DNA from: Corynebacterium sp. HMSC074A01
GTDB taxonomy: Bacteria > Actinomycetota > Actinomycetes > Mycobacteriales > Mycobacteriaceae
DNA length: 64,000 nt
NCBI RefSeq assembly: GCF_001831515.1
Contig: NZ_KV825601.1
Location: 46,351-110,350, forward strand
Reading direction: 5' to 3'
Of the stretch, positions 23,222 through 28,072 are shown piece after piece. Position 1 is the first letter of the stretch, and each line of letters starts with the position of its first letter. Both the position numbers and the translations under genes were made by a program. The notes beneath the pieces were generated by a model. That model was not told the origin of the DNA. It saw nothing but the letters and a program-made list of their open reading frames with translations, and ran no database searches.

Positions 23222-23335
23222 TTAATACCCATGCGCCTGGTTCAGTGCCTCGCCGTGCCCGAAGTGCGGGCGCAGGTGGTTATCAAACAGGGACAGGACC
23301 GCACCGATGGCCATCTGCATGTTCAAGCGCTGGCG
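23222..23335 (-). pseudogene. Remnant of a glf 3' end
   Basis: The minus strand encodes about 35 codons ending in TAA that closely match the C terminus of the intact Glf at 26792. The shared core includes [17 protein letters not shown] and GEALNQA. Upstream the similarity decays within a few codons and no start exists. It is therefore a short, diverged duplicate of the gene's tail, on the same strand as glf and 3.6 kb away. Confidence 0.8.
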
Positions 23336-23385
23336 GACGCCCCCGCCTCAGCAGGACCCAACGTTCACACAAATTGCGAACATAG

Positions 23386-23829
23386 CTGCAACAGTCAAGC
23401 ACGAAAACCACTGCTGAGCCCAGCGCACAGGAGGCCGTCTCCCCTGCCGCGGATACGCTGGTCGCCAAGCTGATGCGGGAAGACGTCTACGCCCTGTCGC
23501 CGAACGACACGATCCGCCATGCGCTGCACATGTTCGTGGACAAGCGGATTTCTGGCGTGCCGTTGCTTAGCGACGACCGCACGCTGGCCGGTTTCGTCTC
23601 AGACGGGGACGTACTCGACGTGATCGGCGACTCCGTGCCGGCCTTCACCACGCCGTACGCGCTGCTCGCACACAACGACTCGACAGAGTTCGGTACTGAC
23701 GTGGCCGCTGTTCTCGGCCGACCGGTCTCGTCGTTAGCAACGATGACTCCGTCGTTCGTCGTTGGCATCATCAATCGCTCCGACATCAACCGCTACCTCG
23801 TTTCGACGTTTGTGCCGGTCGCTGGGTAG
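23386..23829 (+). pseudogene. Truncated CBS-domain protein remnant
   Basis: One nearly complete CBS motif (VAKLMREDVYALSPNDTIRHAL then RISGVPLLSDD and LAGFVSDGDVLDVIG) is followed by the last strand and helix of a second (VVGIINRSDINRYLV). About 40 residues are missing between TMTPS and FVVGI. The frame is open back to a TAG at 23383-23385 with no good start or RBS, and the upstream part, probably a membrane domain, is absent. It therefore looks like a gene broken at its 5' end and internally deleted. A short translated product from the ATG at 23473 cannot be excluded. Confidence 0.7.
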
Positions 23830-23852
23830 CGCAACGCAACGGGCCGGAGCCT

Positions 23853-23980
23853 GAGAGTTGTTGGAGAGTTGTTTGAAACAACTCCAAACAACTCTCAAAC
23901 AACTTCACCTCAAAACAATCCAGTAAATGCACTGTTTCTGCAGCTCAACATAGTTGTTTTGAGTTGTTCTGGGTTGTTTT
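23853..23980. repeat. Direct repeat copy R1 (GTTGTT/AACAAC array)
   Basis: A ~115-bp core (from 23866) aligned with R2 at 25742-25854 in the same orientation. Order: palindrome GAGTTGTTTGAAACAACTC, further AAACAACT half-sites, a central block CAGTAAATGC-CTGTTTCTGCAG shared with R2, then three GTTGTT half-sites in the opposite sense. R1 carries one additional upstream GTTGTT. It ends 22 bases from the stop codon of the AlbA_2/HATPase gene. Confidence 0.88.
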
Positions 23981-24002
23981 GCTGACGGTCTGGCGTCTCT
24001 GG

Positions 24003-25714
24003 TTAAGTAGAAACCCATCGGACGCCTGGCCCCCGCTTAGGGCTATCGTGAGCGATCTTTGCTTTACCCAAATCTCTAAGGTGCCGGAGGAGCCGACTTA
24101 CCGATTGCCTCTCAACACCTAATTCTTCAGCAACTTCACGAGCATTCAGAGCATTCCCTTCACGGAGCTGAGCGATAATCCAGTCCTCCGTCGTTACCGC
24201 ACTGACTACAGAGGATGCTTCACCGTCAAAAGCGGCTCTGGCTTGCGCGGACAATATCCATTCAGGAGCATCCCTCAGCTGCTCCAGGAAGCCCTGCCTT
24301 GCATACCATCCTAAGGTTTCCTGGGCCTGCGCCTCCGAGACTTGCATAAGCCGAGCTGCAGTAGAAGTCATCAAGATCTGATTATTTGCCAAATGGCGTG
24401 TAACCAAGAGTCCATTCACACTATCGAAAATGGCATCCCCAAATGTTGAACGCAGCTGATATAGCGCCTTGATGAAATCTTGATCCACCTCACCAGAAGG
24501 CAAAGTAACCTCAACAAACGGCCCATCAGTGTTCAGACTCGGGGTTTGCCTGCCGCTTGAGAGCATAGAGACCCACATGCGGTCGAAACCGCGCGACGAT
24601 TCCTCAGCGAGACTCAACTGCCTTAAAGCCCCCATGAGCACTGGGTTCCGCGGAATAGATTGGGTGGTCAAAATTCTTTCTTTACGAACACCCACTGGAA
24701 GGCTGCCAGGAGACCACACTGTCAAGCTGGTGGGAGACTGGTCTACGACTATTGCTGCGGTAGCTCCCCAATCGCGGTGAGCAAACGCATTGGAAACAAC
24801 TTCGTCAACCGCCATCGTCGGGAACGCAGGAATCGGGAACTCCTGCCCATTCGGGAGCTGGACTCGAGCGATTTCCTGAGATGTATGGTCCGTGATGAGC
24901 GCGCGGAGGCGTTCGGAAGCTGTAATTAACGGTGCCGAGATCTCGGTCACCTTTGGATCACCACTGGGCACCTCCCGAAGAAGGTGACGAACTACCGACC
25001 GGTTATTTAACGGCTGCATGAAGAGTATTTCCGCTGCGAAAGTCAGTCCTCCATCAGGCTTTAGCAGGCCTAACTCACTGCATAGTTCGAGCCCCGTCCG
25101 CGGAACCGGTGAGCTGTCACCCAAGGCTTTTTCCGATTGGCTAGGAGAACTCTCGCCCGCTCGACGGCTTGCAGATCCAATTCTTCAGGCCCTCGCCTCG
25201 ACGCCATAGCACTGAAATCTGGATTGGCGCGTGCCAGATGGATACTCCGACGCTCGTCTTCCCCGAGTGGGACACAGCTTTTCCCTACACGCTTGCTCGC
25301 TTGACCTTTGGATCGTTGGTAGAGCGCCATCCCTCGCGGAACACGCAAGATTATCAAACGCGCATCGCACCACTGGATTTCAAAAGCTTCTACTTGGATA
25401 TGTGGCTGGGTCTTACTGTAGATCTTCTCCACCAACCAGTCGCAAGCACGGTCAGTTCCAGTAAACGCAGATGGCCCCGACTTCTTGTCGTTAACACCAA
25501 GGACGATGTATGCGACTCCGCCATCCGCGTTGGAAAAGCAAATAACTTCGTCGACGAGAAATTCTATTAAGCCCGCATCGGGATTCTTGTTCATCGGATG
25601 CACAGCGGGGTCTTCCTTGAAGTCCAATATCTGCGATTCCCTACTGCTGGCGTTCTCACCAGCTTCAATCGCAGAAAGCGCTTCCCTTACAACCTCAAAC
25701 TCCGCATCGACCAT
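24003..25714 (-). pseudogene. AlbA_2 (Schlafen-type) / HATPase_c_4 / wHTH regulator, frameshifted
   Basis: Two overlapping open frames read as one ~570-aa protein. The 5' part (25714-25070) holds an AlbA_2 DNA-binding domain (SQILDFKEDP, then CFSNADGGVAYIVLGV). The 3' part (25124-24003) holds an ATPase-like domain (VDEVVSNAFAHRDWG, TVWSPGSLP, IPRNPVLMGAL) and a C-terminal winged helix (NAREVAEELGVERQSVSRLLRHLR). The frame breaks at a run of five A/T (25128-25132); one more A restores ANRKKALGDSS. A real mutation, a sequencing error or -1 frameshifting at G-AAA-AAG are all possible. The gene is AT-richer than its surroundings. An ATG at 25714 without RBS suggests a leaderless start. Confidence 0.75.
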
Positions 25715-25741
25715 GCAATGAGCATAACAGGAGTAATACAC

Positions 25742-25854
25742 GAGTTGTTTGAAACAACTCAAAACAACTCTGAAACAACTTCCGCTCACAACGACCCAGT
25801 AAATGCGCTGTTTCTGCAGATCGACATAGTTGTTTGGAGTTGTTCAGAGTTGTG
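25742..25854. repeat. Direct repeat copy R2 (GTTGTT/AACAAC array)
   Basis: Partner of R1. It has the same order of motifs: palindrome GAGTTGTTTGAAACAACTC (25742-25760), two further AACAACT half-sites, the central block, and three GTTGTT-type half-sites. It lies 28 bases upstream of the AlbA_2 gene's start, so it is also that gene's promoter region, and 28 bases from the EamA stop. Confidence 0.88.
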
Positions 25855-25881
25855 CATTACTCACCGCATTGCCCTGACAAC

Positions 25882-26781
25882 TCACGCCACGCGGGATTCT
25901 TTCGCCCCGCGCCACGTAATGATCGCGCCGGCCGCAGCAATCAACGCAATGCCTGCTGCCATGGAGCATGTGATCTGGTCCCCAGAGAAGGCCCAGCCCA
26001 CAATCGCGCCGATAACCGGGTCCAGCGCGAAAAGCGTGCCAACAACCGCCGCCGAGACAATGCCGGCAGCGATCGTGTCCATAACAAAAGGGACCACCGC
26101 GCCGATGAAGCCCGAGAGCACAATGGTGCCCCACATCGAGCCGTGCACATGCGGTGCCGTGGAAACAGCAAAGGGCGCAAGCACGAGCGCCGCGACGACC
26201 ACCGACAGCGCCAAATCCGGCATCCCGCCGCCCTCGGCATTACCCATACGGGCAGCGAAGAGGGTGTAGATACCGAAGAACGCCGCACCAACTGCGGCAA
26301 AAGCAACGCCGACGATGTCAAGGTCGTTGGAGGGTTGGGCGATCAGGGCGACGCCCACGAACGCGGCGATGGCCCACAGGCGGGAGCACCACATCTTCAG
26401 GCCAAGAAAAGAAACGACGCAGGGGCCGAGGAAGTCGATGGTCACGGCCACACCCTGCGGAAGACGGGCGATGGCCTGGTACAGCATCACGTTCATCAAC
26501 CCGATGGCGACGCCGTAAACCACGATATTGATCACCCGGGCGCGCGTCATACCCGATAACCGCGGCCGGAACAGCAGCACCATAATGACGGCGGCAGCGG
26601 CCATGCGCAGGCCCGAGACGCCCGGCGCGCCCACCGTCGGCAACATGTCAGTCACGAGCACCGCCGCGGCCTGGGTGCCAATCGATCCGATGAGCACCAG
26701 AAAAATGGGGGCTGCGGGAAGCCCGAAGAAGAAGTCTACGCCCCGTCGGGAAGCGGCATGCTGTCTCTGTTTATGGGACAC
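25882..26781 (-). CDS. EamA-family (DMT superfamily) metabolite exporter, RhtA-like
   Basis: Ten hydrophobic segments in two five-helix repeats across 299 aa, typical of EamA/RhtA exporters for threonine, homoserine or related metabolites (GVSGLRMAAAAVIM, then LYQAIARLPQGVAVTIDFLGPC and FALDPVIGAIVGWAFSGD). GTG start with no strong RBS, 10 bases after the glf stop, so coupling with glf is likely. The substrate cannot be read from sequence. Confidence 0.82.
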   Translation of the reverse strand: MSHKQRQHAASRRGVDFFFGLPAAPIFLVLIGSIGTQAAAVLVTDMLPTVGAPGVSGLRMAAAAVIMVLLFRPRLSGMTRARVINIVVYGVAIGLMNVMLYQAIARLPQGVAVTIDFLGPCVVSFLGLKMWCSRLWAIAAFVGVALIAQPSNDLDIVGVAFAAVGAAFFGIYTLFAARMGNAEGGGMPDLALSVVVAALVLAPFAVSTAPHVHGSMWGTIVLSGFIGAVVPFVMDTIAAGIVSAAVVGTLFALDPVIGAIVGWAFSGDQITCSMAAGIALIAAAGAIITWRGAKESRVA

Positions 26782-26791
26782 CCACGCAAGA

Positions 26792-28072
<1,281 letters not shown>

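Follow-up and report, generated by a model that had tools for sequence, protein, structure and literature searches.

A Schlafen-type gene bracketed by two direct repeats (R1 and R2) lies between the ends of a CBS-domain gene and an EamA transporter gene (Table 1) in the window, i.e., the whole stretch of 64,000 nucleotides from Corynebacterium sp. HMSC074A01 that was analyzed.

Table 1. Positions of the repeats, the gene parts and the neighboring genes in the window.
Feature	Start	End	Strand	Remarks
Left neighbor, CBS-domain gene	23473	23829	+	Its end forms the left unit border
R1	23866	23977	+	Direct repeat 3′ of the gene; G+C 38%
Layout of R1				Palindrome GTTGTTTGAAACAAC, AACAACT half-sites, variable spacer, core GCAGCTCAACATA, three GTTGTT sites
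3′ gene part, other frame	24003	25124	−	GHKL ATPase (HATPase_c_4) and winged-helix region
5′ gene part	25070	25714	−	SLFN_AlbA_2 domain (Pfam) with acids E26, D31 and D76; frame lost by frameshift
Candidate extended −10 (TGTTATGCT)	25721	25729	−	6 nt before the ATG, directly downstream of R2
R2	25742	25853	+	Direct repeat 5′ of the gene; G+C 42%
Right neighbor, EamA transporter gene	25882	26781	−	Its end forms the right unit border

R1 and R2 are 88% identical over 112 bp in direct orientation (E 7e-33). The distance between the gene stop and R1 is 26 bp, that between the gene start and R2 is 28 bp. The G+C content of the window is 64%, so that both repeats are A+T-rich. With R1 as query, the only matches in the 2.55-Mb genome were R1 itself, R2 and the palindromic part of R1. 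As a control, segments from either side at distances above 2 kb from the gene were compared; of 60 pairs, none aligned at E<1e-6 and three did so at approximately 3e-6. The two direct repeats described in the original prediction are therefore real. The AACAAC and GTTGTT half-sites and the palindrome are also present as claimed, with the AACAAC sites 10 to 11 bp and the GTTGTT sites 10 bp apart. The proposed repeat bounds were confirmed with respect to the alignment along the whole length, but a left end at 23853 takes in an additional GTTGTT that is missing from R2. The central block CTGTTTCTGCAG, which had been called conserved, varies across the units, and the common core is approximately GCAGSTCAnnATAGTTGTT. 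To the left of the unit, a stretch of 38 residues (23228-23341) is 76% identical to the protein encoded at 26792-28033, presumably a UDP-galactopyranose mutase; a relic of a rearrangement is a possible origin of this stretch.

What had been read as one gene in the window consists of two overlapping ORFs in different frames of the minus strand. This split was classified as a frameshift, since a relative (locus L043), whose identity to the two ORFs is 95% and 96%, has a single ORF. One long ORF was found in 17 of the 19 loci of relatives that were read, the genes of L033 and L038 being interrupted; in L033 (7172-9500) the gene is split by an insert of approximately 0.6 kb. The gene in the window is broken and only its repeats look intact. 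The SLFN_AlbA_2 domain was detected in the window ORF with 53.2 bits (Pfam cut-off 25.3), and the model of an intact relative gives the domain order SLFN_AlbA_2, GHKL ATPase and winged helices, which in the window is distributed over the two frames. The acidic residues at positions 26 (E), 31 (D/E) and 76 (D) are conserved across 14 aligned relatives. For rat SLFN13, an excerpt of PMC5862951 gives the acids E205, E210 and D248, to which E26, D31 and D76 of the window can be likened by spacing alone.

In a fold comparison with the model of the intact relative, the SLFN fold resembled the nuclease domains of Schlafen and SAMD9 proteins, and no recombinase was among the fold matches listed for it. 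Neither window ORF had a Pfam match to a transposase (Y1 transposase at E<=0.001), and for the intact relative NCBIfam gave only helix-turn-helix transposase matches of 15 bits, far below the cut-off. A unit with no recognizable transposase, as predicted from the sequence, is in line with the Pfam and NCBIfam results above cut-off. PADLOC 2023 gave partial matches only, chiefly to pAgo and Aga models. The SLFN domain may act as an RNase and the unit as an anti-phage effector.

Bacterial Schlafen proteins were described, in an excerpt of PMC12839542, as a combination of an SLFN RNase with a minimal histidine kinase and a wHTH, with an association to BREX-type loci across at least 1017 taxa. The protein of the unit belongs to these proteins by its SLFN_AlbA_2 domain with three catalytic-type acids and by the GHKL ATPase and C-terminal winged helix that the intact relative carries in one protein. 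The domain order (SLFN_AlbA_2, GHKL, winged helix) is the same as in that excerpt, whereas the bracketing repeats, which the excerpt does not mention, and an extra terminal winged helix distinguish the unit (PMC12839542). The match to DIP2311 of C. diphtheriae (PDB 3LMM) extends to residue 500 and does not reach the terminal winged helix. Shorter homologues (L106-L112, L118 and L119) had no two-sided repeats and are taken to be of the DIP2311 type. At L110, where the shorter homologue lacks the terminal helix, an R-like site (44 bits) was found downstream only, approximately 340-464 bp after the gene.

The presence of two-sided repeats follows that of the terminal winged helix, which was called at 40 bits or more. 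Two-sided repeats (E<1e-7) were found in 30 of the 40 loci with this helix and in 3 of the 29 loci without it (Fisher p 1e-7, uncorrected for kinship). At the looser threshold of E<1e-5 the numbers were 31 of 40 and 6 of 29 (p 3e-6). The three helix-less loci with two-sided repeats are L121, L122 and L097. The absence of the helix is uncertain for L076, L078, L097, L114 and L119 (stops inside the match) as well as for L100 and L102 (short). For ten of the 40 helix proteins the second repeat was absent or weak and an R-like match was kept upstream, which is weak in L067, L071 and L098 (12-21 bits). The terminal winged helix would bind the half-sites, whose phasing is 10-11 bp.

The aligned copies of the repeat have a common order of GTTGTTT, AACAACT sites spaced by 10-11 bp, a spacer whose sequence varies, a core (approximately GCAGSTCAnnATA) and two to three GTTGTT sites spaced by 10 bp. 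Some copies start with ATTTCCCCAGG or finish with TATTACTC. AGTTGTT is the majority half-site. The half-site ATATCTTT was identified in L084, L090, L094 and L096 and, mixed, in L085, AATTGTT in L099, AGTTCTT in L091 and GTTTCGACA in L088. Both direct copies of a unit have an identical half-site class, and the class varies by lineage. The predicted recognition helix contains AG in the ATATCTTT/AATTGTT clade and V[TS] or I[TS] in most others; by sequence comparison, a change in this helix appears to accompany the half-site change in one clade only. For 28 of 38 repeats (19 units with both copies above 30 bits) the best match was the partner copy of the same unit, and the pair in L082 is 100% identical over 108 bp. 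The close pair L066/L080 showed the opposite pattern, with 95% and 98% identity between orthologous repeats compared to 84% and 87% between the copies within a unit. Beside the unit of L099, a 48-bp piece recurs twice nearby (929 and 2985), perhaps as a separate small repeat family.

Upstream of the gene, the motif TGnTAnnnT was found 6-8 nt before the ATG, with half-sites of the repeat just upstream, in 10 of the 10 regions that start at the start codon (the window and nine relatives). The count excludes eight of the 18 available upstream regions, which begin at the edge of the match. A scan with the strict sigma-70 consensus detected no promoter. Protein bound at R2 would block the promoter abutting the ATG and repress its own gene.

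Further copies, for which a BLASTN search had been proposed, exist: R1 as DNA query matched 30 of 201 genomes of the genus (own genome included), several of them twice at a distance of approximately 1.9 kb. Using a sequence model of the repeat, matches were obtained in 66 of 242 genus genomes (own included). At least 99 sites were counted by hand among the matches listed for these 242 genomes. They comprise at least 29 same-strand pairs at a distance of 1.6-2.0 kb; among the remaining sites listed are at least four tandem pairs, at least one pair 1.0 kb apart and at least 31 singles. Two of the 29 pairs are not full units (G156 with one partial repeat and no family protein, G012 with a gene remnant only). 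Several of the singles belong to genes with one repeat, and G625, G024, G186 and G620 are among those left unread.

A protein-alignment scan of 84,980 species genomes resulted in 79 loci from the best 80 of 383 relatives. Repeats were analyzed in 70 loci, namely 68 of the 79 plus the window and L161, with L130-L140 (11 loci) left out. An upstream/downstream direct repeat was found in 38 of these 70 loci (E<1e-5), four of which were discarded: L116, L117 and L123 (59-62% identity, G+C-rich) and L097 (repeat unlike the others). The two-repeat units fall into approximately 19 flank clusters by our own count, 12 of them in Corynebacterium and the others in further actinobacteria such as Actinomyces and Rothia (tblastx, 150 bits), although part of the flank differences may reflect host divergence and not movement. 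The proteins of L084 and L090 are 84% identical and belong to different flank clusters. Further hosts are Rothia, Actinomyces, Arcanobacterium and Trueperella records and unplaced actinobacterial MAGs. In a scan of the phylum, 8 of 396 genomes (own included) matched at E<=1e-30; of the seven loci from other genomes, short repeats occur in L161 (38 bp) and L163 (29 bp), and none stands out in the other five.

Two planctomycete MAGs (L121 and L122) encode a homologue of 27-28% identity between direct repeats with TCATT half-sites, with only 6-8 bits for the terminal winged helix. At L057 (4390-6121), a DNA methyltransferase-like gene, recognized by eye, is flanked on both sides by R-like clusters, of which one is partial. 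Carriage by phages or plasmids was considered and discarded: 28 plasmid and 16 phage records matched, all with less than 60% identity. In IMG/VR, 50 stretches fit a pattern and none of them encodes a relative.

The repeat also occurs without the gene. By tblastn, no family protein was found beside the repeat in 15 of 26 regions read, most of which had been picked for holding a single repeat; together with L042, L044 and L045 this gives 18 regions with gene-less repeats. Gene remnants were identified in L205 (approximately the last 24 codons), in L213 (approximately the first 26 codons, between two repeats) and in L200 (pieces). L039 lies approximately 320 bp from a contig end, and the repeats of L218 and L219 are weak (29 and 26 bits). 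According to the original prediction, repeats scattered without such genes would speak against a unit. Such repeats do exist, literally, in the 18 regions, and they fit gene loss, since several of them sit where relatives have the unit.

The window carries the full unit, whereas at the same locus a single repeat separates the CBS and EamA gene ends in both G060 and G104; in G141 the EamA side is as in the window and the CBS end was recognized by eye. The full unit of G060 at L099 corresponds to a solo repeat in G025 (L210), with flanks 96% and 89% identical, and that of G129 to a solo repeat in G614, with flanks 90% and 93% identical, which G064 and G083 match partly. The flanks of the solo repeats of G610 and G122 match those of the G190 and G159 units. 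The reverse case is given by G025: next to the EamA gene at which G060 has a solo repeat, G025 carries the gene, with the CBS side unmatched and one intact repeat. The interior of the solo repeat is R1-like on the left and R2-like on the right for window/G060 and G129/G614, with differing switch points. Matches to R1 and R2 are mixed for G190/G610 and G060/G025, and the interior is uninformative for G055/G141 (near-identical copies) and window/G104 (diverged). These interiors weakly favor homologous recombination over one fixed crossover point.

No repeat-free site alignable across both borders was found among the G122 unit, the CBS-EamA site and locus X. Other lineages do not have the gene pairing of the CBS-EamA site, the neighbors differ at the G122 site and a truncated repeat persists at locus X, so that no target duplication can be stated for these sites. 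The G122 unit (L059, 6379-8330) adjoins the end of an MFS-type transporter gene, as recognized by eye; relatives have approximately 1.6 kb with other ORFs there.

The unit is probably a Schlafen cassette that is gained and lost; the protein encoded in it is predicted to bind both repeats and repress its gene. Homologous recombination between the two repeats would remove the gene while one repeat stays, and solo repeats could serve as points of re-entry for an incoming copy. The cassette possibly serves phage defense. The original prediction had offered a mobile unit and a regulator flanked by its own operator arrays as alternatives. The former agrees with the approximately 19 flank clusters and with solo repeats where relatives have the unit. 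The latter agrees with repeats that track the terminal winged helix, with half-sites that vary by lineage and with the position of R2 just upstream of the recurrent −10 motif. Both ideas are supported and fit together without competing.

Movement of the unit by its own protein, with the SLFN-GHKL-winged-helix protein pairing and cutting the repeats and no other enzyme involved, is unlikely. It would account for the one gene per unit, the repeats bracketing both ends, the acidic residues 26, 31 and 76 conserved across the 14 aligned relatives, half-site classes that differ along with the protein and the 84%-identical L084 and L090 proteins in different flank clusters. However, the fold matches of the SLFN domain are nuclease domains of Schlafen and SAMD9 proteins with no recombinase among those listed, the R1/R2 switch points in solo repeats vary from case to case and no target duplication was found. 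A related reading, which we regard as doubtful, is a new class of single-gene mobile elements in Actinomycetota and perhaps beyond (the two planctomycete MAGs with TCATT-type repeats), in which the protein would recognize its own end repeats and both regulate and mobilize the unit, with solo repeats as footprints.

Two operator arrays that loop the DNA over the gene and have no role in movement would explain the phased half-sites, the candidate promoter adjoining R2 and the co-occurrence with the winged helix; solo repeats would then be ordinary deletion scars. The approximately 19 flank clusters, the occurrence of full units and solo repeats at corresponding sites of several genomes and near-identical repeat pairs such as that of L082 (100% over 108 bp) make this purely regulatory role quite improbable. 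For the repeats as a structured RNA, e.g., an antitoxin RNA for a Schlafen RNase, the large hairpin suggested in the original prediction received support from the folding energy, as the predicted folds of five copies are more stable than those of shuffled sequences (z -3.3 to -4.8). The covariation term is nearly zero (0.07), with a two-sided change in 1 of 15 pairs, and no terminator-like site was found in 23800-26000. The hairpin was rejected on the covariation result, and an RNA function is very improbable.

The proposed gain-and-loss cassette shares features with several known systems. RAYT/REP elements consist of a single gene, with a Y1 transposase, bracketed by palindromic repeats. The unit resembles them in the single gene between palindromic repeats, but no Y1 transposase was found in it, and its repeats are direct, approximately 110-190 bp long and operator-like. 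With integron gene cassettes, whose attC end boxes read RYYYAAC ... GTTRRRY, it shares a single gene and recombination-type sites as direct repeats. Unlike these cassettes, it has two sites per unit and no attC end boxes, the half-sites reading GTTGTTT; for the integron integrase, the best match to TIGR02249 in this genome was 97 bits compared to a cut-off of 265. LTR elements have long direct terminal repeats and leave solo LTRs at matching sites. The long direct terminal repeats and the single repeats at matching sites are similar in the unit, whereas no reverse transcriptase domain was found and its repeats are predicted to bind its own protein. No description of a repeat-bracketed Schlafen unit was found in the excerpts of the PMC literature covered. 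The Schlafen protein family is known; what is new, as far as these searches show, is its arrangement between its own repeats with solo repeats left behind.

Through the unit, a bacterial Schlafen family that has received little study is linked with a defined DNA site, and natural half-site variants are available together with their cognate proteins for specificity tests. The arrangement points to a way in which a single immune-type gene could be gained and lost although it brings no transposase, and solo repeats would represent a readable record of past carriage.
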